Virus record (IMG/VR): IMGVR_UViG_3300025120_000414
Location: 1 to 27,787 of that record
Length of the DNA: 27,787 nucleotides
Source: a virus
Strand: one strand, 5' to 3'
Part shown: piece after piece, positions 4,273-24,614 of the stretch
Position numbering within the stretch: the stretch's first letter is position 1
Layout of the letters: each line of letters begins with the position of its first letter
Notes under the pieces: generated by a model
What the model saw: only the letters and a program-made list of their open reading frames with translations
The model's database searches: none
What the model was told of the DNA's origin: nothing
Made by a program: the position numbers and the translations under genes

Positions 4273-4500
4273 ATGAGAGTTAAGAAGCGTAACTACAAAG
4301 AGGAGTACAAGAAGTTTGGATCTGGCGGCAGAGCAAAGAAGAAACGGGCTGAGCTAAACCAGTACAACCGAGAGAAAGGAACCTATGGGAATGGGGACAG
4401 CCTTGATGCATCTCATAAGGGTGGGAAGATCGTAGGTTTTGAGGCAGAGGGTAAGAATCGTGGTAGGCGAGAGAAGTCCCGACTCAAGAAAAAGAAATAA
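4273..4500 (+). CDS. small basic phage protein, HNH-like relic family (75 aa)
   Basis: A 75-aa, very basic protein that begins MRVKKRNYKEEY and ends in KSRLKKKK. The central pattern of basic helix, GNGD-x-x-D-x-x-H (about 41-49) and a C-terminal Asn-Arg-Gly-Arg segment resembles a widespread marine-phage family of small 'GDG..DH' proteins that look like reduced HNH folds. The full set of HNH metal ligands is not visible, so it may bind nucleic acid without cutting. It is the first rightward gene, directly behind a TATATTTGC box. Role in the virion or in packaging is a guess. Confidence 0.7.
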   Translation: MRVKKRNYKEEYKKFGSGGRAKKKRAELNQYNREKGTYGNGDSLDASHKGGKIVGFEAEGKNRGRREKSRLKKKK

Positions 4501-5016: not shown

Positions 5017-5235
5017 ATGAAGACTAAAAAGTATATGAAGGGAGGGAAGGCCGCCATGTATGACATGGTGAAGAAGTACATGGCAGGGGGGAAGATGGGT
5101 AACCCAAAGGCAGAAAAGCTAAAACTATTAAAACAACAGCTTTTAGCAGCTAAAAATAGTCAGTACGCTACCGAAAAAGATAGATCTAATGATATCGCTA
5201 TGATACAGCGTCAGATCCGAGATCTTGGAATCTAA
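5017..5235 (+). CDS. small Lys/Gly-tagged protein (72 aa)
   Basis: A 72-aa basic protein whose N-terminus carries two copies of a short tag, KKYMKGGK and KKYMAGGKM (about 4-27). A helical C-terminal half, rich in Lys, Gln and Leu (AEKLKLLKQQLLAAK), looks like a short coiled coil. The same kind of 'K-Y-x-x-GGK' tag occurs in at least three other small proteins of this phage. The start follows 4 nt after the previous stop codon. Function unknown; such proteins may coat or bind nucleic acid or ride in the capsid. Confidence 0.6.
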   Translation: MKTKKYMKGGKAAMYDMVKKYMAGGKMGNPKAEKLKLLKQQLLAAKNSQYATEKDRSNDIAMIQRQIRDLGI

Positions 5236-5811: not shown

Positions 5812-5969
5812 TGGGTAGTAAAAACTACTTCAATCCGAGGCTTAAGAGAATTAACCCTGCGTATATTGCAGAAAAAAATAAATTCAATGAGGTTAAGCAA
5901 AAATCTAACGCTAAAAGAAGTGGTGAAGTCCAACACCGCGACCCGAAAGGGGATCGACAACACCCCTGA
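5811..5969 (+). CDS. possible small protein with GTG start (52 aa), uncertain
   Basis: A 52-codon frame starts with GTG that overlaps the TAG of the 188-aa gene and ends inside the peptidase gene, in a different frame. The product is basic and Asn/Lys-rich (NPRLKRINPAYIAEKNKF). It would fill the 75-bp gap before the peptidase start, and its first half has a plausible composition. The second half overlaps coding sequence and has none of the motifs used to identify a gene. It could be a coincidence. Confidence 0.25.
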   Translation: MGSKNYFNPRLKRINPAYIAEKNKFNEVKQKSNAKRSGEVQHRDPKGDRQHP

Positions 5970-6354
5970 CCAGTGGGCTATCAACAATATAAAGGCTGTT
6001 GCGGAAAATATCTTCCAACCTATACGTGATCACTTCGGTGTACCTATCGGGGTGTCGTCTGGATTCCGAGGAAAGGACCTCAATAAGGCTATTGGGGGTA
6101 GTAAATACTCCCAGCATATGATTGGGGAGGCTCTCGACCTAGATGCAGACATGTACGGGAAGGTAACTAACGCCGAAATCTTTAATTACGTCAAGAATAA
6201 TCTCGATTGGGATCAGATGATCTGGGAGTTCGGGGATGACGAGGAGCCAAACTGGGTGCATATATCATACAAAGATGATGGGCCTAACAGAAAGCAGATA
6301 AAAAGGGCTCGAAGGGACGAAAAAGGCAGGACTTACTACACCGTAGAGACCTAA
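5887..6354 (+). CDS. M15-type peptidase, likely endolysin (155 aa)
   Basis: A zinc metallopeptidase of the M15 family (VanY/D-Ala-D-Ala carboxypeptidase-like fold), which cleaves peptide cross-links of peptidoglycan. The visible ligands are His at about 77 and Asp at about 84 in SQHMIGEALDLD, preceded by SSGFRGKDLNKAIGGS, and His at about 125 in EPNWVHISY. The length is usual for a one-domain phage enzyme. I chose the ATG at 5887; a TTG at 5866 would add seven residues. There is no signal peptide, so release would need a holin or another lysis factor. It may instead be a virion-associated enzyme, but the single catalytic domain favours an endolysin. Confidence 0.88.
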   Translation: MRLSKNLTLKEVVKSNTATRKGIDNTPDQWAINNIKAVAENIFQPIRDHFGVPIGVSSGFRGKDLNKAIGGSKYSQHMIGEALDLDADMYGKVTNAEIFNYVKNNLDWDQMIWEFGDDEEPNWVHISYKDDGPNRKQIKRARRDEKGRTYYTVET

Positions 6355-8776: not shown

Positions 8777-9124
8777 ATGGCCTATAAAAAGAAAGAAGAT
8801 CAGGCTAGGGCGGGGGCTAAACACTATAAGGATAATTGCGAAAAAGTAAAGGCTAGGTCAAAGAGAAGAAATACATCTCAAAGAAAAAAAAATAAAGATT
8901 TTGTCTGGAGGGTAAAACGCATGTTTAATTGTGTTGATTGCGGAGAAAATAATCCTGTAGTTCTTGAGTTTGATCATGTAAGAGGCAGTAAAAGAGGTAA
9001 TATATCAGACATGGTTCGTTGGTCTTACTGCCTTAAAACAATAAAAGAAGAGGTTCGCAAATGCGAAATAAGATGCGCTAATTGCCATCGTAAAAAAACA
9101 CACGAAAGAAGATCGCACCAGTAG
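8777..9124 (+). CDS. HNH endonuclease (115 aa)
   Basis: A metal-dependent DNA nuclease. The HNH domain occupies the C-terminal two thirds: C-x2-C in FNCVDCGENNP (about 54-62), FDHVRGSKRGN with the central Asp-His (about 67-77), then CEIRCANCHRKKTHER with C-x2-C-H (about 95-110). The N-terminal 45 residues are Lys/Arg-rich and may bind DNA. It could be a free-standing homing-type nuclease, or the HNH that assists terminase in cleavage as in some long-tailed phages, since the terminase gene starts 270 bp downstream. Its last ten bases lie inside the tRNA-Arg gene and its TAG stop is formed by tRNA sequence. Confidence 0.85.
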   Translation: MAYKKKEDQARAGAKHYKDNCEKVKARSKRRNTSQRKKNKDFVWRVKRMFNCVDCGENNPVVLEFDHVRGSKRGNISDMVRWSYCLKTIKEEVRKCEIRCANCHRKKTHERRSHQ

Positions 9125-9188
9125 CTCAGTTGGATAGAGCATCTGCCTTCTAAGCAGACGGCCACAGGTTCGAGTCCTGTCTGGTGTA
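9115..9188 (+). tRNA. tRNA-Arg (anticodon UCU)
   Basis: The cloverleaf is complete. The acceptor is GCACCAG paired with CTGGTGT, with one G-U pair at the first position. The D-arm is GCTC-AGTTGGATA-GAGC. The anticodon stem TCTGC/GCAGA closes the loop CTTCTAA, giving anticodon TCT. The T-arm is ACAGG-TTCGAGT-CCTGT, followed by discriminator A. CCA is not encoded. It reads AGA (and AGG by wobble), the dominant Arg codons in the portal gene. Its 5' end overlaps the HNH gene by 10 bp. Confidence 0.95.
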
Positions 9189-9206
9189 CTAATTAAATCA
9201 AACATT

Positions 9207-16575: not shown

Positions 16576-17304
16576 ATGGCTACATGGAAGCAAGTTTTAC
16601 TTGATGGCGACTCTGGCACAACCATTAATAATAACGCTGATAACAGGGTAATTACTGGGTCTGGAACCGCTAACACGCTTAATGGTGAGGCCAACGTAAC
16701 GTATGACGGAACCGACTTAGCTGTTGCTTCTGGTGGCATCCAACTTGATAATAACCAGTCTTTTTTTGCTAAAAACACGAGCGGCACCGATAGAACATTA
16801 GCCAAAGCAGACGGCTCCAATGTGGCTGTATTTAACGGAGGGTTTACCCAGACACTTATTGGCGGGGCAAGCGGAATCACGCTAAGCGGTCCTGTTACCG
16901 CAGAATCAATAATCCAGCAGCACGACAATGTAAGTTCTGAGGGGGACTTTGGCGCGGGTGCAGATATTACTTTTCTCGGAAGCTCTAGCACCAGTACCGT
17001 GGTTGGTAAGGTCTACTATTACGATGGTAGTACGTGGCAGGCTTTTTCTTCCGCTACAGAAGCTGCTCAAAAAGCTTTATTAGGTATTGCTCTAGGCACT
17101 ACAATGGCTTCTGGCTTTTTATTAAAAGGTTTTATTCATCCATCTTCTGGCACCTTGACTACTGCTGCACCAGTGTTTGGGGCTACCGATGCTTCTTTCC
17201 AATCCGCCGCTCCTAGTAGTGGATTTCAAAGGGTTTTGGGTCACGCGATTAGCACTTCTGCTATTTATTTCAATCCTTCTCAGGAGTATATAGAGCTAAG
17301 TTAA
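16576..17304 (+). CDS. tail fibre-type protein (242 aa)
   Basis: A 242-aa Gly/Ser/Thr/Ala-rich protein whose first residues MATWKQVLLDGD parallel MATWKKILTEAD of the 435-aa fibre, suggesting a shared attachment sequence. It has beta-helix-like repeats (NGEANVTYDGTDLAVASGG) and a C-terminal domain with GKVYYYDGSTWQAFSS, common at the end of marine phage fibres. Its stop codon overlaps the LamG-type gene by one base (TAATG), so the two are probably co-translated. Confidence 0.72.
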   Translation: MATWKQVLLDGDSGTTINNNADNRVITGSGTANTLNGEANVTYDGTDLAVASGGIQLDNNQSFFAKNTSGTDRTLAKADGSNVAVFNGGFTQTLIGGASGITLSGPVTAESIIQQHDNVSSEGDFGAGADITFLGSSSTSTVVGKVYYYDGSTWQAFSSATEAAQKALLGIALGTTMASGFLLKGFIHPSSGTLTTAAPVFGATDASFQSAAPSSGFQRVLGHAISTSAIYFNPSQEYIELS

Positions 17305-18254
17305 TGCCTGATATTTCCAAACTTAGTGGTATAGACATCGACTCGGTAGCTAAATTGTCAGGGGTGGCTAAGTCATCTATAGCTAAAGTCGGAGGCGTGT
17401 CTATAGCGGCCTCTGGCTTTAGCAACACCAAATCTCTGGACACGGATGGAGTCAACGACTACTTTGAAGCGGCTCTTTCTTCTGACATCGTAAACACCGA
17501 TACTGGATCTATTTCTTTTTGGGTAAAGCTAACTACAGGGGAAACTGGAACAGGTAGATATATTCAGCTATATGAGAATGGCAGCACCGCCACCAGAATT
17601 GAAGTGCTCCTTTTCTATGTATCTGGTTCCCCTCAAGCTAAGTGTATAATGGGGAACTATAGATCACAATCAGCATCCAGGGTTACCAGCGCAAAAACAG
17701 AGTCTAGTTTTCACGGAAGACCCTTTTCTAGAAGCTCTGGTAATTATGGCGATTTTGGGGCAGGAGGTTCTGACTATATGTATCAATATGGGTTAGATCT
17801 TGATAGCTGGCATCATGTTGTTTTTACATGGGATACGGGCGGTAGCTTTACTTACGGCTCGACTACATACAACGGAGTGCTGAAATTGTATTTTGATGGT
17901 GTATTGGTTGATGAAGGTCAGTCAACTGTTCCTAGTAATAGAGGGGTAGGTTCGGCATCATCCATTACTGCCGTTCCTTCTAGCGTGACTATAGACAGGG
18001 TAAGAGTGGGCGCAAGCCAAGCAGGTAATTCGCCTCTTGACGGCTTGCATGATGAGGTTGCAATATTTAATAGCGTTCTTTCTTCAACTGATGTAAGCAA
18101 CATATATAATTCTGGAACTCCTGCCGATCTATCGTCTTACAATAATCTAATTGGTTGGTGGAAATTTGATGATAACGGAAACGATTCATCGTCTAATTCA
18201 AACAACGGATCTTTATATAACGGAGCTTCATACAGCTCTACAGTGCCTACGTAA
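17304..18254 (+). CDS. LamG-type (concanavalin-like) adhesin (316 aa)
   Basis: A 316-aa protein with a short N-terminal linker (MPDISKLSGIDIDSVAKLSG) and a concanavalin A-like/LamG domain from about residue 50 to 300. Signature strands are SLDTDGVNDYFE, SISFWVKLT, SWHHVVFTWD, LKLYFDGVLVDEG and DEVAIFNSVLSSTDVSNIY, ending in LIGWWKFDDN. Such domains bind glycans or fold as lectin jelly-rolls, so it probably contacts the host surface. There is no signal peptide, so it acts as part of the virion rather than as a secreted protein. Confidence 0.85.
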   Translation: MPDISKLSGIDIDSVAKLSGVAKSSIAKVGGVSIAASGFSNTKSLDTDGVNDYFEAALSSDIVNTDTGSISFWVKLTTGETGTGRYIQLYENGSTATRIEVLLFYVSGSPQAKCIMGNYRSQSASRVTSAKTESSFHGRPFSRSSGNYGDFGAGGSDYMYQYGLDLDSWHHVVFTWDTGGSFTYGSTTYNGVLKLYFDGVLVDEGQSTVPSNRGVGSASSITAVPSSVTIDRVRVGASQAGNSPLDGLHDEVAIFNSVLSSTDVSNIYNSGTPADLSSYNNLIGWWKFDDNGNDSSSNSNNGSLYNGASYSSTVPT

Positions 18255-18529: not shown

Positions 18530-18823
18530 ATGGCTCTAACCAAAAGCGAAAAAGCAAAGATAAAGCGCTACGGACTTTCTGGTTTAAGTAAGCCAAAGAG
18601 ATCTTCTAGCGGTAAAAAGTCGCATATCGTCGCCGTTAGGATAAACGGTAAGATTAAGATCATTCGCTTTGGGGAGAAAGGTGCGAGCACGGCTGGTAAA
18701 CCAAAGGCTGGTGAGTCAGCCAAGATGAAGGCTAAGAGAAAGTCATTTAAGTCCAGGCATAGAAAAAACATTGCTAAAGGACCGAGTAGCGCTGCTTACT
18801 GGGCAAACAAAGTGAAATGGTAA
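18530..18823 (+). CDS. conserved small basic phage protein (97 aa)
   Basis: A 97-aa, very basic protein with the pattern KSHIVAVRINGKIKIIRFGEK (about 29-49), a Lys/Arg-rich middle and KSFKSRHRKNIAKGPSSAAYWANKVKW at the end (about 71-97). The 'AYWA..VKW' ending and the 'RFG.KG' motif mark a family found in many marine phages, usually among structural genes. It probably binds DNA or RNA in the virion, which is inferred from its charge. The next gene starts within its last codons (7 bp overlap), coupling it to the secreted cassette. Confidence 0.72.
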   Translation: MALTKSEKAKIKRYGLSGLSKPKRSSSGKKSHIVAVRINGKIKIIRFGEKGASTAGKPKAGESAKMKAKRKSFKSRHRKNIAKGPSSAAYWANKVKW

Positions 18824-20892
18824 GAACACTAATCTTTTTCTTGCTGTTTCCAGCAATTGCTTTTGCTCAGCCAAGCTGGGTAAACGTATCTATATTTAGT
18901 GATCTCTATGGTGGTGAAACCAGCTGGGAGATATACAACGGTCCAGAGGTTGTCGCTCAGTCTTCTGGGGTTTTATTCAGCAACGCTCTCTCTAACAGCA
19001 TGGTGTTCTTGCCAGCTGGTGAGTATGAGTTTGTTATATACGACTCTTTCGGGGACGGCATATGCTGTGCGTTTGGTGAGGGTTGGTTTGGATTAAACAA
19101 CACCTGCGGGTTGGACACCGCTGTGTACGACTTTGCCTTACCTCAAATGAACATTCCCTTTGTCTTGGAGCCTTGCGCTCCACTAGTGCTTGGGTGTATG
19201 GACGAAGAGGCAAACAACTACAACCCTTGGGCCACACTAGATAACGGTAGCTGTAACGTGAGTCAATGCCCAGAGGGGGAGGCGTTTGTATCTATGGAGC
19301 TTACGTTAGATAACTGGCCCAATGAGACTGGGTTTACTCTCGTCAACCTAGCTGTAGGTGAGTTTTACGATCAGGTGCTTCCAGGTCAGTTTAACTTTGG
19401 GGATCAGCTAGCTACATATACATACGATTTTTGCGTATCCCTTGGATTTGAGCTAATACTAACGGATACATTCGGGGATGGCATTAACGGATCTACTAGT
19501 GGGGGGCAGGACGGAGCTGTAGTAATCACATCCTGTGAAGACAGCATTATATGGGAGCTTGATGATTTAGCTTTCGCTGCTGATGGGGGTAACGTCTATT
19601 ACTCAGGGGCTGTATTTGTAGACCCTTGCGTTTCAGAAGAGGCTGTCGTTGGATGCATGGATGACGACTACGTTGATTACAATCCAGAGGCTACTGAGCC
19701 CGCTGATTGCTTGACGCTACACACCTGGGGCTGTATGGATTCTGAATCTTTTAACTACGATAGCACCGCTACAATATCAGACATCATCAGTCCTTGCTCG
19801 ATCACTATCACGCTTGAGGATGACGCTGGAGACGGGTGGGGCAACTCTCACCTTGGTGTTGCACAGGGCGCACAGCAGTGGATATTTACTGTTGGGCCTG
19901 ATGAGTTTTCTCAGTCATGGGATCTTACACTTGACTCAGACGAGGAGGTTGATATATACTATTTTGAGATCGGCGGTCCACAACAGCCCCCACAAGAAAC
20001 TGAGTTTCAGACACTTCACAATTCTGTAGTTGTAACCAACAGCCTTGGAGACACGCTTCTTATTGAGGGCGATAACCCCTTCTTCGATAACGGTCAGGGC
20101 GCACTACAGCCTTTCGGTAATCCAGAGTGGAATGTGTATCACTTCACTCCCTACTGCGGTAATAGCTGCCTTCCTTTTGTTTATGGTTGCGTAGACTCAG
20201 AGGCTCAGAACTACAATGAGTTAGCTAACACAAGTGACGAGAGTTGCTACTACGCTGCTGGTTGTATGCAGGCTGGATATCTAGAATACTACACTCAAGG
20301 GTATGAAGCTGACTTCGATGACGGAAGCTGTCAAGAGTTAGCCGTGTTCGGTTGCACCGATCCAGAGGCAATCAACTTTGACCTAGCTGCGAATGTAGAT
20401 AACAACGGGTGCATTCCTGTAGTTGTTGGTTGCATGGATATTGACGCCGCTAACTACAATGAAAATGCAAACACCCCAGACAGTGAATCTTGCCTGTATG
20501 ATGCAGGTTGCATCGGTGAGCCTGGAGATCCATACTGGGCCAACGACTTGTGTTACTCCTGGGTGATTGAAGTAGACCCTTACTGCTGTGAGCAAGGATG
20601 GGATAACGCCTGTGTTGATCTGTACGAGTATTGCGAAGAGGGGTCAGCAACATATGTTCTTGACTACAATTACGATGCATCTATCAAGGTGTATCCAAAT
20701 CCAGTCTCGAAAAGACTAAACATTAGAACAGATAAAAACATAACCACCGAAGTCTACAATATACTGGGTAGACTGGTTGTCCCTAAAACAAACAGTAGGC
20801 AAATAGACGTGTCTTCTCTTCCTTCTGGTTTTTATCAAGTTGTTGTTAGATACGACGACAGATACACTGTAAAGAAAATTTCAAAAAAATGA
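18817..20892 (+). CDS. secreted Cys-rich repeat protein with T9SS sorting domain (691 aa)
   Basis: A signal peptide (MVRTLIFFLLFPAIAFA, cleavage near 17/18) would send it to the periplasm. Near residues 70-90, and again further on, it has DxFGDGI segments. About seven Cys-rich repeats of 25-45 residues follow, such as GCMDEEANNYNPWATLDNG, GCTDPEAINFDLAANVDNN and GCMDIDAANYNENANTPD, then a separate Cys cluster (CCEQGWDNACVDLYEYC). The last 70 residues (from about 622, with KVYPNPVSKRLNI and SSLPSGFYQVVV) are a type A T9SS C-terminal sorting domain, which directs export across the outer membrane of Bacteroidota. It would act outside the host cell. Role unknown: adhesion, surface masking or matrix. 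Confidence 0.85.
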   Translation: MVRTLIFFLLFPAIAFAQPSWVNVSIFSDLYGGETSWEIYNGPEVVAQSSGVLFSNALSNSMVFLPAGEYEFVIYDSFGDGICCAFGEGWFGLNNTCGLDTAVYDFALPQMNIPFVLEPCAPLVLGCMDEEANNYNPWATLDNGSCNVSQCPEGEAFVSMELTLDNWPNETGFTLVNLAVGEFYDQVLPGQFNFGDQLATYTYDFCVSLGFELILTDTFGDGINGSTSGGQDGAVVITSCEDSIIWELDDLAFAADGGNVYYSGAVFVDPCVSEEAVVGCMDDDYVDYNPEATEPADCLTLHTWGCMDSESFNYDSTATISDIISPCSITITLEDDAGDGWGNSHLGVAQGAQQWIFTVGPDEFSQSWDLTLDSDEEVDIYYFEIGGPQQPPQETEFQTLHNSVVVTNSLGDTLLIEGDNPFFDNGQGALQPFGNPEWNVYHFTPYCGNSCLPFVYGCVDSEAQNYNELANTSDESCYYAAGCMQAGYLEYYTQGYEADFDDGSCQELAVFGCTDPEAINFDLAANVDNNGCIPVVVGCMDIDAANYNENANTPDSESCLYDAGCIGEPGDPYWANDLCYSWVIEVDPYCCEQGWDNACVDLYEYCEEGSATYVLDYNYDASIKVYPNPVSKRLNIRTDKNITTEVYNILGRLVVPKTNSRQIDVSSLPSGFYQVVVRYDDRYTVKKISKK

Positions 20893-22274
20893 AAAAACTA
20901 TTAGCTATTGCGATGATGGCAATGAGCTTTTGCTCGTTATCTCAGCCAGACCTGGTTGTAACTGACCTCTACACAGACAGCCTGTGTGTTAGCGGTATAG
21001 CCTACTACTCTGTTCACTTCCTTGTAACCAATCAGGGCGATGAACCCAGCGAGTATTTCTGCTATGAGCTAGACGGAAACGAATCCTGTCCAGACACTTC
21101 TGGTGGCACTTATCCGTTGAATCCAGGTGGTAATAGATCCTTTGTTGTGGGCTGGCTTAATTTCAATAATTTTGGTGAGCCCCTAACTGTTGAGCTTGTA
21201 AACGATGAAGACGAAGTAAACACGTTAAATAATTCATCAACCATTATTATACCAGATCAGCATGAGTGTCCTGCCCTTGAGGTTGATCTCAGCGTAGATA
21301 CAGTTCTATACGAAACTGGATGCGATGTGTTTGGTCCCTATTTAGAACCAAAAATTTTCATATCCAATCATGGCACCGAAGACATAACGGATTTCTGTGT
21401 AAAGTTTCAGGTACTCGGCCAAACAAATGACACTGTTTGTTTTACTGGTCAAAGCTATCTTCCTTTGGGGCCTGGGTCTACGGCTGTTCAGCAGTGGCCT
21501 AGAATATATGTAGACGGCGTTCTTAGCCTCCACTTGCTAGATGTAAATGGAGAGAGTGAATTTTGGTGGATCGACTTTGGTCTTGATGAGAACTCATACA
21601 ATAACACTTATGTGCAGGTGCTCCCTAATATAACCACTTCTTGGTGCACGTCTGGATGCACAGACGGGTTGGCTTGTAATTACATGGGGGATGTATTTAT
21701 CGACGACGGATCTTGTACCTATGCAGACGCTGGATATGATTGTGATGATGTTTGCTTGAACGACACAGATGAAGACGGAGTATGCGATGAATTTGAAGTC
21801 GCTGGTTGTTCCGATGATGCGGCCTGCAACTATGACGCCGATGCCACCGACGACGATGGTTCGTGCACGTTCCCGACCACGGGTTACGACTGCAACGGAG
21901 ACTGCTTATACGACGCTGATCAAGATGGAATATGCGATCAATTCGAAATACCAGGATGCACTGATTTAGATGCAGACAACTATAACCCTGAAGCTACAGA
22001 CGATGACGGTACTTGCGAGTATACAATAAACTTAGCGCGTGAGGTGGATTACGTAGAGGATTTGAATGTCTACCCTAACCCCTTTGATGATGTAATTTAC
22101 GTATCTACCCTTCCTGGATCTCTCTGTAGAGTAAGAGACATGAACGGACGAATCGTCATTGAAAGAACTATGTCCGCTGTTATTAGCATGAACTTGCTGG
22201 GAAGCGGGGTTTACTTTGTTGATTGGATACTAGACGGTGAGGTAGCCTTAACGAAGAAGATTGTAAAGAAATGA
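20889..22274 (+). CDS. secreted T9SS-sorted protein with CARDB-like and Cys-rich repeats (461 aa)
   Basis: Signal peptide MKKLLAIAMMAMSFCSLS (cleavage near 18). Two CARDB-like Ig-type domains follow: residues about 20-110 (PDLVVTDLYTD and FLVTNQGDEPSEYF) and about 120-235 (LEVDLSVDTVLYETG, FISNHGTEDITDF). Then come three Cys-rich repeats (GCTDGLACNYMGDVFIDDG, GCSDDAACNYDADATDDDG, GCTDLDADNYNPEATDDDG) alternating with DTDEDGVCDEFEV and DADQDGICDQFEI, thrombospondin-3-like Ca2+-binding segments. The final ~73 residues (LNVYPNPFDDVIYV and LLGSGVYFVDW) are a T9SS sorting domain. Start and stop codons overlap with both neighbours (ATGA), so it is translated together with the 691-aa gene and the beta-barrel gene. 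Confidence 0.85.
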   Translation: MKKLLAIAMMAMSFCSLSQPDLVVTDLYTDSLCVSGIAYYSVHFLVTNQGDEPSEYFCYELDGNESCPDTSGGTYPLNPGGNRSFVVGWLNFNNFGEPLTVELVNDEDEVNTLNNSSTIIIPDQHECPALEVDLSVDTVLYETGCDVFGPYLEPKIFISNHGTEDITDFCVKFQVLGQTNDTVCFTGQSYLPLGPGSTAVQQWPRIYVDGVLSLHLLDVNGESEFWWIDFGLDENSYNNTYVQVLPNITTSWCTSGCTDGLACNYMGDVFIDDGSCTYADAGYDCDDVCLNDTDEDGVCDEFEVAGCSDDAACNYDADATDDDGSCTFPTTGYDCNGDCLYDADQDGICDQFEIPGCTDLDADNYNPEATDDDGTCEYTINLAREVDYVEDLNVYPNPFDDVIYVSTLPGSLCRVRDMNGRIVIERTMSAVISMNLLGSGVYFVDWILDGEVALTKKIVKK

Positions 22275-23311
22275 GGCTGCTATTCGCTATAGTGTTTTGT
22301 TTTTTCAGCCTTACTGCTGAGGCTCAGTTCTTAAAGAAGACATTTAAGTTTGCTACGTTCTACACGGCTTTTAGCGGAAACAACTCAGTGTCTGATGTGG
22401 ATGTATTCTCCGTTTCCAATGGCCCATTGCAAACAGACGTAATTAAGACCCCATTCGATTATGCCTTCACAGCAGGTGTAAGAAAGATAGCTAGGTTTGG
22501 ATACGAAAACAGAGCCAACAACTTCTATAGCGGAAGCGAGACATCATATAGCGACGCAGCTACAATCGGCAAAATAAAGGGTTTTGAGTTTTTGTTTCAG
22601 GGGTCGTATCAAAGACAGCAGGGGATAGAGTTCCTAAATCAAGATCACTTCTTAAGATATGTAGGAGAGCACTGGATAGGAAAGGTAGAGTTCTTGCAGG
22701 ATGGGTTTGCTGATGTAAGCTACTTCGAGGGGTCTCAAAGGGGTAGAATCAACTTAGGAAAGAAGCTGTCGATAAACCTGGGTGTTGTGCAGAGGTTGTC
22801 AGAGCCATACGGGTATGACCCGCTAGGAGAATGGATGCTAGCAAATAACAGCATACACTACACTCAGCTTGCTATACAGGAAGGGTACAATGTAGACTTT
22901 GTTACTGGGGAGTTTTTAAATCCTGATGGCGATGTAGTTGCAGAAAACGTTGAGGTATGGGAGTCTGTAGTTGTACCAGAGGTTATTGGAGATTACGTAA
23001 ACAGAAAGAGAAGTGAACTACCAAGTCAGTGGAACTACTCAGTTATTGCTGGGTTTGATTTCTATCACTTTACAAAAGACTTCTGGCTGCACAGCTGGGC
23101 AAATGCCCTTCCCTATCACCTTGCTTCCGACAGCGAGTTCTCTTATCAAAACTTTATTGACGGAGACCAATGGTTTGATTACTCAGGAGGATTGATCTTT
23201 GGTTGGAAACTAAACAAAAGCCTAGGGATGTTTCTCGAAGGCAGATACCATAAGTATTGGAACAGGGAGTGGCACAACTTCTCTGTGGGGTTAAATTATG
23301 TAATTATTTGA
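22271..23311 (+). CDS. predicted outer-membrane beta-barrel protein (346 aa)
   Basis: A signal peptide (MRLLFAIVFCFFSLTAEA, cleavage before QF) precedes a protein with many amphipathic beta-strands with alternating aromatic residues (KFATFYTAFSGN, FEFLFQGSYQR, NYSVIAGFDFYHF, WFDYSGGLIFGWKLN). It ends in a strand with a hydrophobic last residue, HNFSVGLNYVII, as expected for outer-membrane barrels. I recognise no specific family; PorP/SprF-type barrels partner T9SS adhesins, and a comparable partnership is possible. Its ATG overlaps the stop codon of the T9SS-sorted gene upstream, and the next, coiled-coil gene starts after one base. Confidence 0.7.
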   Translation: MRLLFAIVFCFFSLTAEAQFLKKTFKFATFYTAFSGNNSVSDVDVFSVSNGPLQTDVIKTPFDYAFTAGVRKIARFGYENRANNFYSGSETSYSDAATIGKIKGFEFLFQGSYQRQQGIEFLNQDHFLRYVGEHWIGKVEFLQDGFADVSYFEGSQRGRINLGKKLSINLGVVQRLSEPYGYDPLGEWMLANNSIHYTQLAIQEGYNVDFVTGEFLNPDGDVVAENVEVWESVVVPEVIGDYVNRKRSELPSQWNYSVIAGFDFYHFTKDFWLHSWANALPYHLASDSEFSYQNFIDGDQWFDYSGGLIFGWKLNKSLGMFLEGRYHKYWNREWHNFSVGLNYVII

Positions 23312-23312
23312 T

Positions 23313-23597
23313 ATGGCAAAGAAGTTGAACGAGGACACTAGCTTCCAAGTAAGCGTAAAGACATTAGCTGGCATTGGTGCTGTAATGGCCGCTGTGATTA
23401 GCGGTTGGTTTATTTTGCAAGCTGATATTGCAGAAGCAAAGGAGCTACCGCTCCCATCCGAACCAGAGATAACTCGAATGGAGTTTGACATGAAAGACCA
23501 GCTAATCAGACAGACAATTATGTCTACTCAAGAAGATGTCACTGAGATCAAGGATGATATGAAAAGGATCGAGGAGAAAATAGATAAACTAAAATGA
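23313..23597 (+). CDS. membrane-anchored coiled-coil protein, candidate lysis factor (94 aa)
   Basis: A 94-aa protein with one predicted membrane span, LAGIGAVMAAVISGWFILQA (about 18-37), then an acidic-to-basic coiled coil (DMKDQLIRQTIMSTQEDVTEIKDDMKRIEEK, split here by function, about 59-89). A small protein with one N-terminal span and a long periplasmic or cytoplasmic helix fits a holin or inner-membrane spanin partner; similar proteins occur in marine phages and their role is not settled. It lies between the secreted cassette and a secreted thioredoxin-like protein. Its start codon comes one base after the barrel's stop codon. Confidence 0.65.
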   Translation: MAKKLNEDTSFQVSVKTLAGIGAVMAAVISGWFILQADIAEAKELPLPSEPEITRMEFDMKDQLIRQTIMSTQEDVTEIKDDMKRIEEKIDKLK

Positions 23598-23600
23598 GAA

Positions 23601-23966
23601 ATGAAAACTCTTGCAATTGCATTATTTGCGCTATTATCAGCAACAGCTTTTATGGCTGTTGTAACGGCTGAGGAATCACCCGTTTGCCAGTCTGGGATTT
23701 GCGTGGTTGAATTTAACGCCGCGTTTAACTCTCAGAATAGCGTTGAGTGGATCGACAAGCTAAGCGACTGCGAGGTTGCTAGGGTAGACATCCTGGCTAG
23801 TCCTGATATGCAAAAAGAACACAAGATAGTTGTAGTCCCTACGATTATCGTTTTTAATGATGGCGAAGAAGCTGATAGGTTTCAAGCTAACATTATGATG
23901 GCTATAGACGCCACCAAGAAAGACGTGCAAAGCGTTATTGATGAAATACTAATGAGCTCGTTCTGA
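23601..23966 (+). CDS. secreted thioredoxin-like protein without CxxC (121 aa)
   Basis: Signal peptide MKTLAIALFALLSATAFMAVVTA (cleavage near 23). The mature part has a compact thioredoxin-like plan: a first strand and loop (SPVCQSGICVVEFNA), a helix (NSVEWIDKLSD), a strand (VARVDIL), and HKIVVVPTIIVFNDGEEADRF with the cis-Pro of the thioredoxin fold (about 71-90). The usual WCxxC is missing; Cys residues sit at CQSGIC instead. It is probably periplasmic and may be redox-active through a shifted Cys pair or act as a structural domain. It overlaps the start of the Lys/Gly-tagged gene by one base. Confidence 0.65.
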   Translation: MKTLAIALFALLSATAFMAVVTAEESPVCQSGICVVEFNAAFNSQNSVEWIDKLSDCEVARVDILASPDMQKEHKIVVVPTIIVFNDGEEADRFQANIMMAIDATKKDVQSVIDEILMSSF

Positions 23967-24157
23967 TGAAAACGATGAAGTACAAAAAAGGCGGAAAGCT
24001 TTCTGTCTCTAGTAAAAAAGTATCTGTAGACCCACCAAGCGGTTATCACTGGATGGAGGAGCAAGGAAGATACTATCTTATGAAGGGGGATTACAAGCCG
24101 CACCCTGGAGCTGTAGCTAAAGCAAAGTTTAAGATTGCTAATCACCCCAAGTCATGA
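23966..24157 (+). CDS. small Lys/Gly-tagged protein (63 aa)
   Basis: The 63-aa product begins MKTMKYKKGGKLSVS, with the short Lys/Tyr/Gly tag. The rest, SGYHWMEEQGRYYLMKGDYKPHPGAVAKAKF, resembles a small conserved phage family with 'G.HWM....G.Y.LM.G.Y.PH.GA' pattern. Highly basic. Its start overlaps the thioredoxin-like stop codon by one base and its end overlaps the 48-aa gene in an ATGA arrangement. Function unknown. Confidence 0.65.
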   Translation: MKTMKYKKGGKLSVSSKKVSVDPPSGYHWMEEQGRYYLMKGDYKPHPGAVAKAKFKIANHPKS

Positions 24158-24300
24158 AGATTAACAAAAAATATTTAGCTGGTAGTAAAGACCCTAAGCG
24201 TCGTGCCGCTCTGATTAGAAGAATTTCAGCTATATACAAGAAGGGTAAGCCATACCCAAAGAACTTAGATCAACTTATGAAACAAAGAGATTCGCTATGA
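24154..24300 (+). CDS. small basic protein (48 aa)
   Basis: A 48-codon frame linked to both neighbours by ATGA overlaps. The product starts MKINKKYLAGSKDPKRR and continues with a helix (ALIRRISAIYKKGKPYP) and a charged end. It carries a variant of the Lys/Gly tag (KKYLAGSK). Highly basic, with no Cys. Its short length means it may be missed by standard gene finders, but the two overlaps support it. Function unknown. Confidence 0.6.
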   Translation: MKINKKYLAGSKDPKRRAALIRRISAIYKKGKPYPKNLDQLMKQRDSL

Positions 24301-24614
24301 AAGCAAAAAAAGCATACAAAAAAGGGGGTAAGTTCCCTGACCTGACTGGTGATGGTAAGGTCACTCAAGCTGACATTTTGAAAGGCCGAAAGGTATTTAA
24401 GATGGGGGGCAAGATGAAGATGTACAAGAAGGGCGGCATGGCTGGACTTAGCGCTGTGCAGAAACAAGTTTATAAGCGCGGCTTAGCTGCTTACATGTCT
24501 TCAGGTAACAGACCTAAAGTGTCTCAACACGCTTGGGCAATGGCAAGAGTGAAGAGTGACTTCGGCAAGAAGGAGGCAGCTAAGATCAGGGCTGGAAAAG
24601 GGAAGAAAAAATAA
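24297..24614 (+). CDS. Lys/Gly-tagged protein with EF-hand-like loop (105 aa)
   Basis: A basic 105-aa protein with an N-terminal tag (MKAKKAYKKGGKFPD), then DLTGDGKVTQADILKGRKVF (about 15-34), which has the D-x-T-G-D-G-x-V-x-x-x-D spacing of dockerin/EF-hand calcium loops and is seen in other marine phage proteins. Two further tag-like repeats follow (KMGGKMKMYKKGGM, about 36-49). The rest (VQKQVYKRGLAAYMSSG and HAWAMARVKSDF) belongs to a conserved phage family. It could be a small virion protein with a Ca2+-binding or DNA-binding patch. Function is not established. Confidence 0.68.
   Translation: MKAKKAYKKGGKFPDLTGDGKVTQADILKGRKVFKMGGKMKMYKKGGMAGLSAVQKQVYKRGLAAYMSSGNRPKVSQHAWAMARVKSDFGKKEAAKIRAGKGKKK

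Follow-up and report, generated by a model that had tools for sequence, protein, structure and literature searches.

A putative lysis-type cassette with T9SS cargo and an outer-membrane barrel in phages of Bacteroidota

Phage-encoded cargo of the type IX secretion system (T9SS) is not new in itself. Three variable T9SS cargo genes were described in 'Cryophage', where superinfection exclusion was proposed (Bellas et al., 2020; PMC7468147), and sorting domains have been mentioned in crAss-like phages (PMC6949934). Like the cargo studied here, the Cryophage proteins are phage products with type A sorting domains, but they are encoded by variable accessory genes (endoglucanase, GH39, PA14), whereas in our locus a single cargo family is tied to three further genes (w26 to w28), a holin and an endolysin. 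A preliminary description of the locus had called it the best candidate in the window for an undescribed phage-host system; we found no published description of the cassette in a partial literature search, but phage T9SS cargo as such was published in 2020.

Other known systems share parts of this arrangement. The T9SS type A cargo of Bacteroidota (TIGR04183, PorV-dependent; RgpB, RemA, NucA) has the same Sec signal and C-terminal Ig-like sorting domain, and the C-terminal domain (CTD) fold of our larger cargo protein, w24, matches solved T9SS CTDs; w24 differs in being phage-encoded, its gene sharing a conserved module with those for an outer-membrane barrel and for lysis. Among type B substrates there are known pairs of cargo and outer-membrane barrel (PMC9143113; PMC12618676), the cargo genes adjoining those of PorP/SprF shuttle or anchor barrels much as the cargo genes here adjoin that of w26, a likely partner. 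Here, however, the cargo belongs to type A, and no PorP/SprF model matches w26. In spanin lysis cassettes (lambda S-R-Rz/Rz1, T7 17.5-18.5/18.7), holin and endolysin likewise move with envelope proteins, and w27 may resemble the inner-membrane and coiled-coil component, whereas at the outer membrane the cassette has a barrel and a surface protein where spanin cassettes have a small lipoprotein.

Cargo, barrel and small partners in the window

The DNA analysed (the window) is an IMG/VR virus record of 27,787 bases and is a fragment. The preliminary description had singled out two genes at 18817-22274 encoding proteins with signal peptides, repeats and T9SS tails. Both ORFs are present with these features, and the two-gene unit is real; it is too small, leaving out w26, w27, w28 and the association with holin and endolysin. 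The features are:

5866..6354, + strand: M15 endolysin (PF08291 E 3.4e-19, phrog_894 E 6.8e-39)
18817..20892, + strand: w24, T9SS cargo of 691 aa (ORF, TIGR04183, PF18962, AlphaFold2 model)
18817..18867, + strand: signal peptide of w24, ending in AFA before Q18 (read from the sequence)
20689..20889, + strand: T9SS type A sorting domain of w24 (DNA-level TIGR04183 search, E 2.6e-14)
20889..22274, + strand: w25, second T9SS cargo, 461 aa (ORF, TIGR04183, PF18962)
22068..22271, + strand: T9SS type A sorting domain of w25 (DNA-level TIGR04183 search, E 3.9e-10)
22271..23311, + strand: w26, exported outer-membrane beta-barrel of 346 aa (structure matches, signal peptide)
23313..23597, + strand: w27, 94-aa single-TM protein with a C-terminal coiled coil (alignment, sequence layout)
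23601..23966, + strand: w28, exported thioredoxin-fold protein of 121 aa (sequence, fold)

Both cargo proteins exceed the curated cut-off (23 bits) of TIGR04183, one of the two sorting-domain profiles proposed for a search in the preliminary description: w24 scores 43.8 bits (E 1.9e-11, residues 625-691) and w25 30.8 bits (E 2.1e-7, residues 394-461). With the Pfam family PF18962 (cut-off 27) the scores are 49.1 and 27.5 bits. The other profile, TIGR04131 for type B sorting domains, was unlisted at E<=0.01 in the NCBIfam scan of the cargo that listed TIGR04183, and the DNA-level TIGR04183 search of the window found no third T9SS tail. The signal peptide of w25, also read from the sequence, ends in SLS before Q19. 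Glutamine at +1 after the signal peptide is a Bacteroidota pattern, the Q-rule (PMC5837995), and a simple heuristic scan found Q-rule signal peptides in 171 of 188 cargo-family ORFs. The w24 and w25 genes overlap by 4 bp (ATGA), and a second ATGA overlap (22271/22274) couples w25 to w26, another exported protein. These features support the view that w24 and w25 are phage-encoded proteins addressed, as judged from their signals, to the host T9SS. A change of the cell surface, exclusion of other phages and altered gliding, as suggested in the preliminary description, would be hypothetical consequences.

In the AlphaFold2 model of w24 (mean pLDDT 74, pTM 0.37), residues 619-691 fold as a T9SS C-terminal domain. 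VIA-align gave Z 8.0-9.1 over 65-70 residues against the CTDs of RgpB, RemA, RemZ, NucA and FspA, and the domain also matches 8glk, a sorting domain solved in a T9SS complex, with 33% identity. The protein further comprises predicted beta-sandwich domains, GC[TM]D repeats and a Cys-rich CC..WD..C segment; a fold search outside the sorting domain returned no specific function, and parts of w24 resemble flavobacterial surface-protein domains without known lytic activity. Relatives of w24 occur at 68 viral loci. Selection maintains both cargo genes, because dN/dS is low: about 0.06 for w24 among its closest relatives, beyond which synonymous sites are saturated, and 0.12-0.14 for w25. We dropped w25 as a core member of the module, since its pairing with w24 is confined to phages closely related to that of the window.

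Twelve strands are predicted in w26, and Q19 is invariant after the signal peptide in 30 divergent members; in the heuristic scan 192 of 196 w26 ORFs had a Q-rule signal peptide. Every strong structural match is to an outer-membrane barrel (Z ~11). The fold search gave no specific function, returning barrels in general and no pore-former, and PorV of the T9SS is among the matches, not ahead of unrelated barrels. Membership of the PorP/SprF family was rejected, no such model being found among 30 w26 members at E<=1. The gene evolves under dN/dS of 0.04-0.07; this value and that of w24 are similar to the terminase's. At least 599 stretches match w26 in IMG/VR viral contigs, at least 579 of them confirmed relatives. 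By comparison, 84,980 bacterial and archaeal species genomes yielded five contigs, all from metagenome bins, and in three such bins an ORF with a T9SS tail directly adjoins w26.

The layout of w27 was read from its sequence, with no model match, and would be i-spanin-like, with an inner-membrane segment and a periplasmic coiled coil. The CXXC motif is absent from w28; a redox role is not favoured, given that the CXXC site is replaced.

The preliminary description had placed the pair between an ordinary small phage protein and virion/lysis genes. The genes are flanked in the window by tail-type genes and the capsid gene; a lysis gene is not adjacent, since the M15 endolysin, the sole one found in the window, lies 12.5 kb upstream of w24. 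No holin match was found in the 27,787-base fragment. Judging from the arrangement in relatives, this endolysin is probably the partner of the module. Among the tail-type genes, 17304-18254 encodes a protein with a Laminin-G/concanavalin-like domain (PF13385 E 6.5e-13), a possible adhesin.

Conservation, lysis linkage and transfer of the module

The preliminary description had also proposed looking for the same cassette in other phages, and it recurs, conserved, in many. To measure this we used 93 distinct w26 genes flanked on either side by 5 kb or more of sequence, counting neighbours within 6 kb; counts were made over distinct w26 genes since those over loci took some contigs twice. The cargo family was present near 93/93, w28 near 91/93 and w27 near 90/93, and in relatives the module genes are all on one strand. 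At E<=0.001, T9SS tails were found in all 49 records bearing w26, 45 of them over the TIGR04183 cut-off, and in none of four named phages without w26, three of which have a related terminase or portal and the fourth of which, Cellulophaga phage phi14:2, was chosen for its Bacteroidota host. By these sequence comparisons, cargo, w26, w27 and w28 are one conserved module.

Some cassettes vary in content. A DUF2279/VanZ-like small exported protein is encoded between w27 and w28 at L033:11322-11624, and several other cassettes have an extra gene at this place. One IMG/VR record of 95,981 bases (G020, loci L048 and L049) carries two w26 copies, 92% identical and near the contig ends. Both are accompanied by a T9SS tail and lysis genes, so that the cassette may be duplicated or an end of the contig mis-joined.

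Genes for lysis are frequent neighbours of the module. The M15 endolysin gene directly follows w28 in many relatives, a holin family (phrog_3427; E 7e-22 to 1e-26 for three members) is often nearby, and arrangements like cargo-w26-w27-w28-M15-holin are seen repeatedly. Of 44 records, 36 have a holin or M15 endolysin gene no more than 6 kb from the cargo, against a mean of 11.4 and a maximum of 22 for random positions (5000 draws); TerL is that close in 2 records only. The linkage is not obligatory, because the distance from cargo to lysis genes exceeds 6 kb in eight records, one of them the window. Holin had no match in 3/44 records and M15 none in 15/44, some of which are fragments.

Our data further indicate that this block moves between phages. 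Across 20 records, identity of w26 was unrelated to that of TerL (Spearman rho 0.03); one pair shares 19% identity in TerL and 85% in w26, and phages with unrelated terminases (19-32% identity) reach 92% in the barrel. We compared 23 phage pairs with TerL below 35% and w26 at 70% or more; drawn from 12 records, the pairs lack independence, and we chose the thresholds after a first look. Genes common to the pairs (at least 50% identity, within 10 kb) were w26, w27 and w28 in all 23, cargo in 22, M15 in 21 and holin in 18, followed by the next gene family in 5 only. Gene-by-gene and DNA comparisons of example pairs showed a common block of module and lysis genes with little else around it. In sequence, the cargo diverges more than w26 or w27. 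Because phages with unrelated TerL have in common the module, the endolysin and the holin and little else nearby, the module is, on this comparative evidence, a lysis-type cassette that travels between phages.

A candidate role at the outer membrane, and its alternatives

The linkage to holin and endolysin points to a function in exit rather than in early exclusion. We propose that the module acts at an outer-membrane or surface step of exit, a proposition whose chances we put at about even. In tailed phages of marine Bacteroidota, the cassette would be a mobile, lysis-type, envelope-directed unit. Late in infection, Sec would export w24, w26 and w28; the type A sorting domain of w24 would direct this protein to the host T9SS for passage across the outer membrane, w26 would be inserted in that membrane as a barrel, and w27 would be anchored in the inner membrane, its coiled coil lying in the periplasm. 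T9SS depends on the proton motive force, which holins collapse. Export of w24 must therefore, we infer, precede holin firing, at which the holin would stop the T9SS as well. The M15 endolysin would then cut peptidoglycan, and the envelope proteins, perhaps in a physical complex and with w24 on the outer face, would open or destabilise the outer membrane, the job of spanins elsewhere. A more specific version, which we hold tentatively as something short of an even bet, is a barrel-based envelope set that replaces spanins, needs the host T9SS to place one part outside and has spread among unrelated tailed phages.

The search for lipoproteins bears on this version. Only unimolecular spanins were found in Bacteroidetes phages in a survey (PMC12596118). 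A crude lipobox heuristic placed a small lipoprotein near the module at 7 of 196 loci, 4 of these being w28 itself, and the lipobox scan of five long module-bearing records gave no convincing candidate. The same scan recovered lambda Rz1 and a T7 candidate as controls and found plausible small lipoproteins in three module-free relatives; it is a crude heuristic applied to few genomes, which a spanin of another type could escape. The scarcity of lipoproteins near the module may thus hint at spanin replacement.

Surface masking is the main rival, which we regard as rather unlikely: w24 and w26 would coat or block the phage receptor, giving superinfection exclusion or, late, keeping progeny from binding debris, as Llp of phage T5 does. 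Masking would suit a surface-addressed cargo with an outer-membrane partner, the stronger divergence of that cargo and a horizontal exchange befitting a host-adapted trait, and it was earlier proposed for the Cryophage T9SS cargo (PMC7468147). It sits poorly with a module that is nearly invariable under strong purifying selection and is co-transferred with endolysin and holin, not with tail fibres. Exclusion genes, moreover, are usually patchy. We judge the exit role to rank ahead of superinfection exclusion or receptor masking.

The remaining readings have less in their favour. Segments of w24, chiefly the GC[TM]D repeats, have protein matches in 66 of the 148 genomes from a single order of flavobacteria, as they would if w24 were a captured host surface protein making cells sticky or altering attachment or nutrition; this is improbable, in that the full architecture and w26 are phage-specific (the five contigs mentioned above) and the linkage to lysis genes is left unexplained. 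Genes lying between tail-type genes and the capsid gene might encode virion components with signal-like ends by chance. We consider this still more improbable, with Q-rule Sec signals in nearly all w26 and most cargo ORFs, 0 in portal, capsid and M15, and a module position that varies relative to the structural genes. Host-like domains could reflect an assembly chimera or host contamination, a concern raised in the preliminary description; the cassette recurs in viral contigs with 165 distinct w26 genes, and 46 of the 49 w26-bearing records tested carry a phage terminase, which refutes this reading and reduces its chances to practically nil.

An exit role would matter beyond this locus. Much of the degradation of marine polysaccharides is due to Bacteroidota, whose phages are common but breach the outer membrane in a poorly known way. 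The cassette, at no fewer than 579 places in viral contigs, could explain the outer-membrane step without a lipoprotein spanin and, if the proposal is true, would link the exit of the phage to a secretion system of its host, the T9SS. A swappable block of lysis genes, barrel and T9SS cargo suggests an unrecognised way of handling the host outer membrane at the end of infection, and the cassette offers four directly testable gene families.

The phage background

The TerL of the window matches phrog_6681 (E 7.7e-207), and among the named relatives of its terminase, phages infecting Flavobacterium, Cellulophaga and other Bacteroidota predominate. A tblastn search of 50,697 named-phage records with w24, w26, w27, w28 and one divergent w26 gave no match. 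A probable relative of w26 from a named virus is the BFVD protein A0A516LKJ4 (342 aa; 25% identity, Foldseek E 4.9e-24).

Upstream of TerL, the window holds a tRNA-Arg (tct) at 9115-9189, directly 3' of an HNH endonuclease gene (8777-9124). Small, very basic proteins with KKGG motifs are encoded at 4273-4500, 5017-5235, 23966-24157 and 24297-24614, and for proteins of this type at related loci the matches are to DUF6321 and to PHROGs without an assigned function. In three related records TerL has in-frame stops inside otherwise long matches (one TGA each in G020 and G023; one TAG and two TAA in G017), for which stop reassignment, an intron and sequencing error are candidates.
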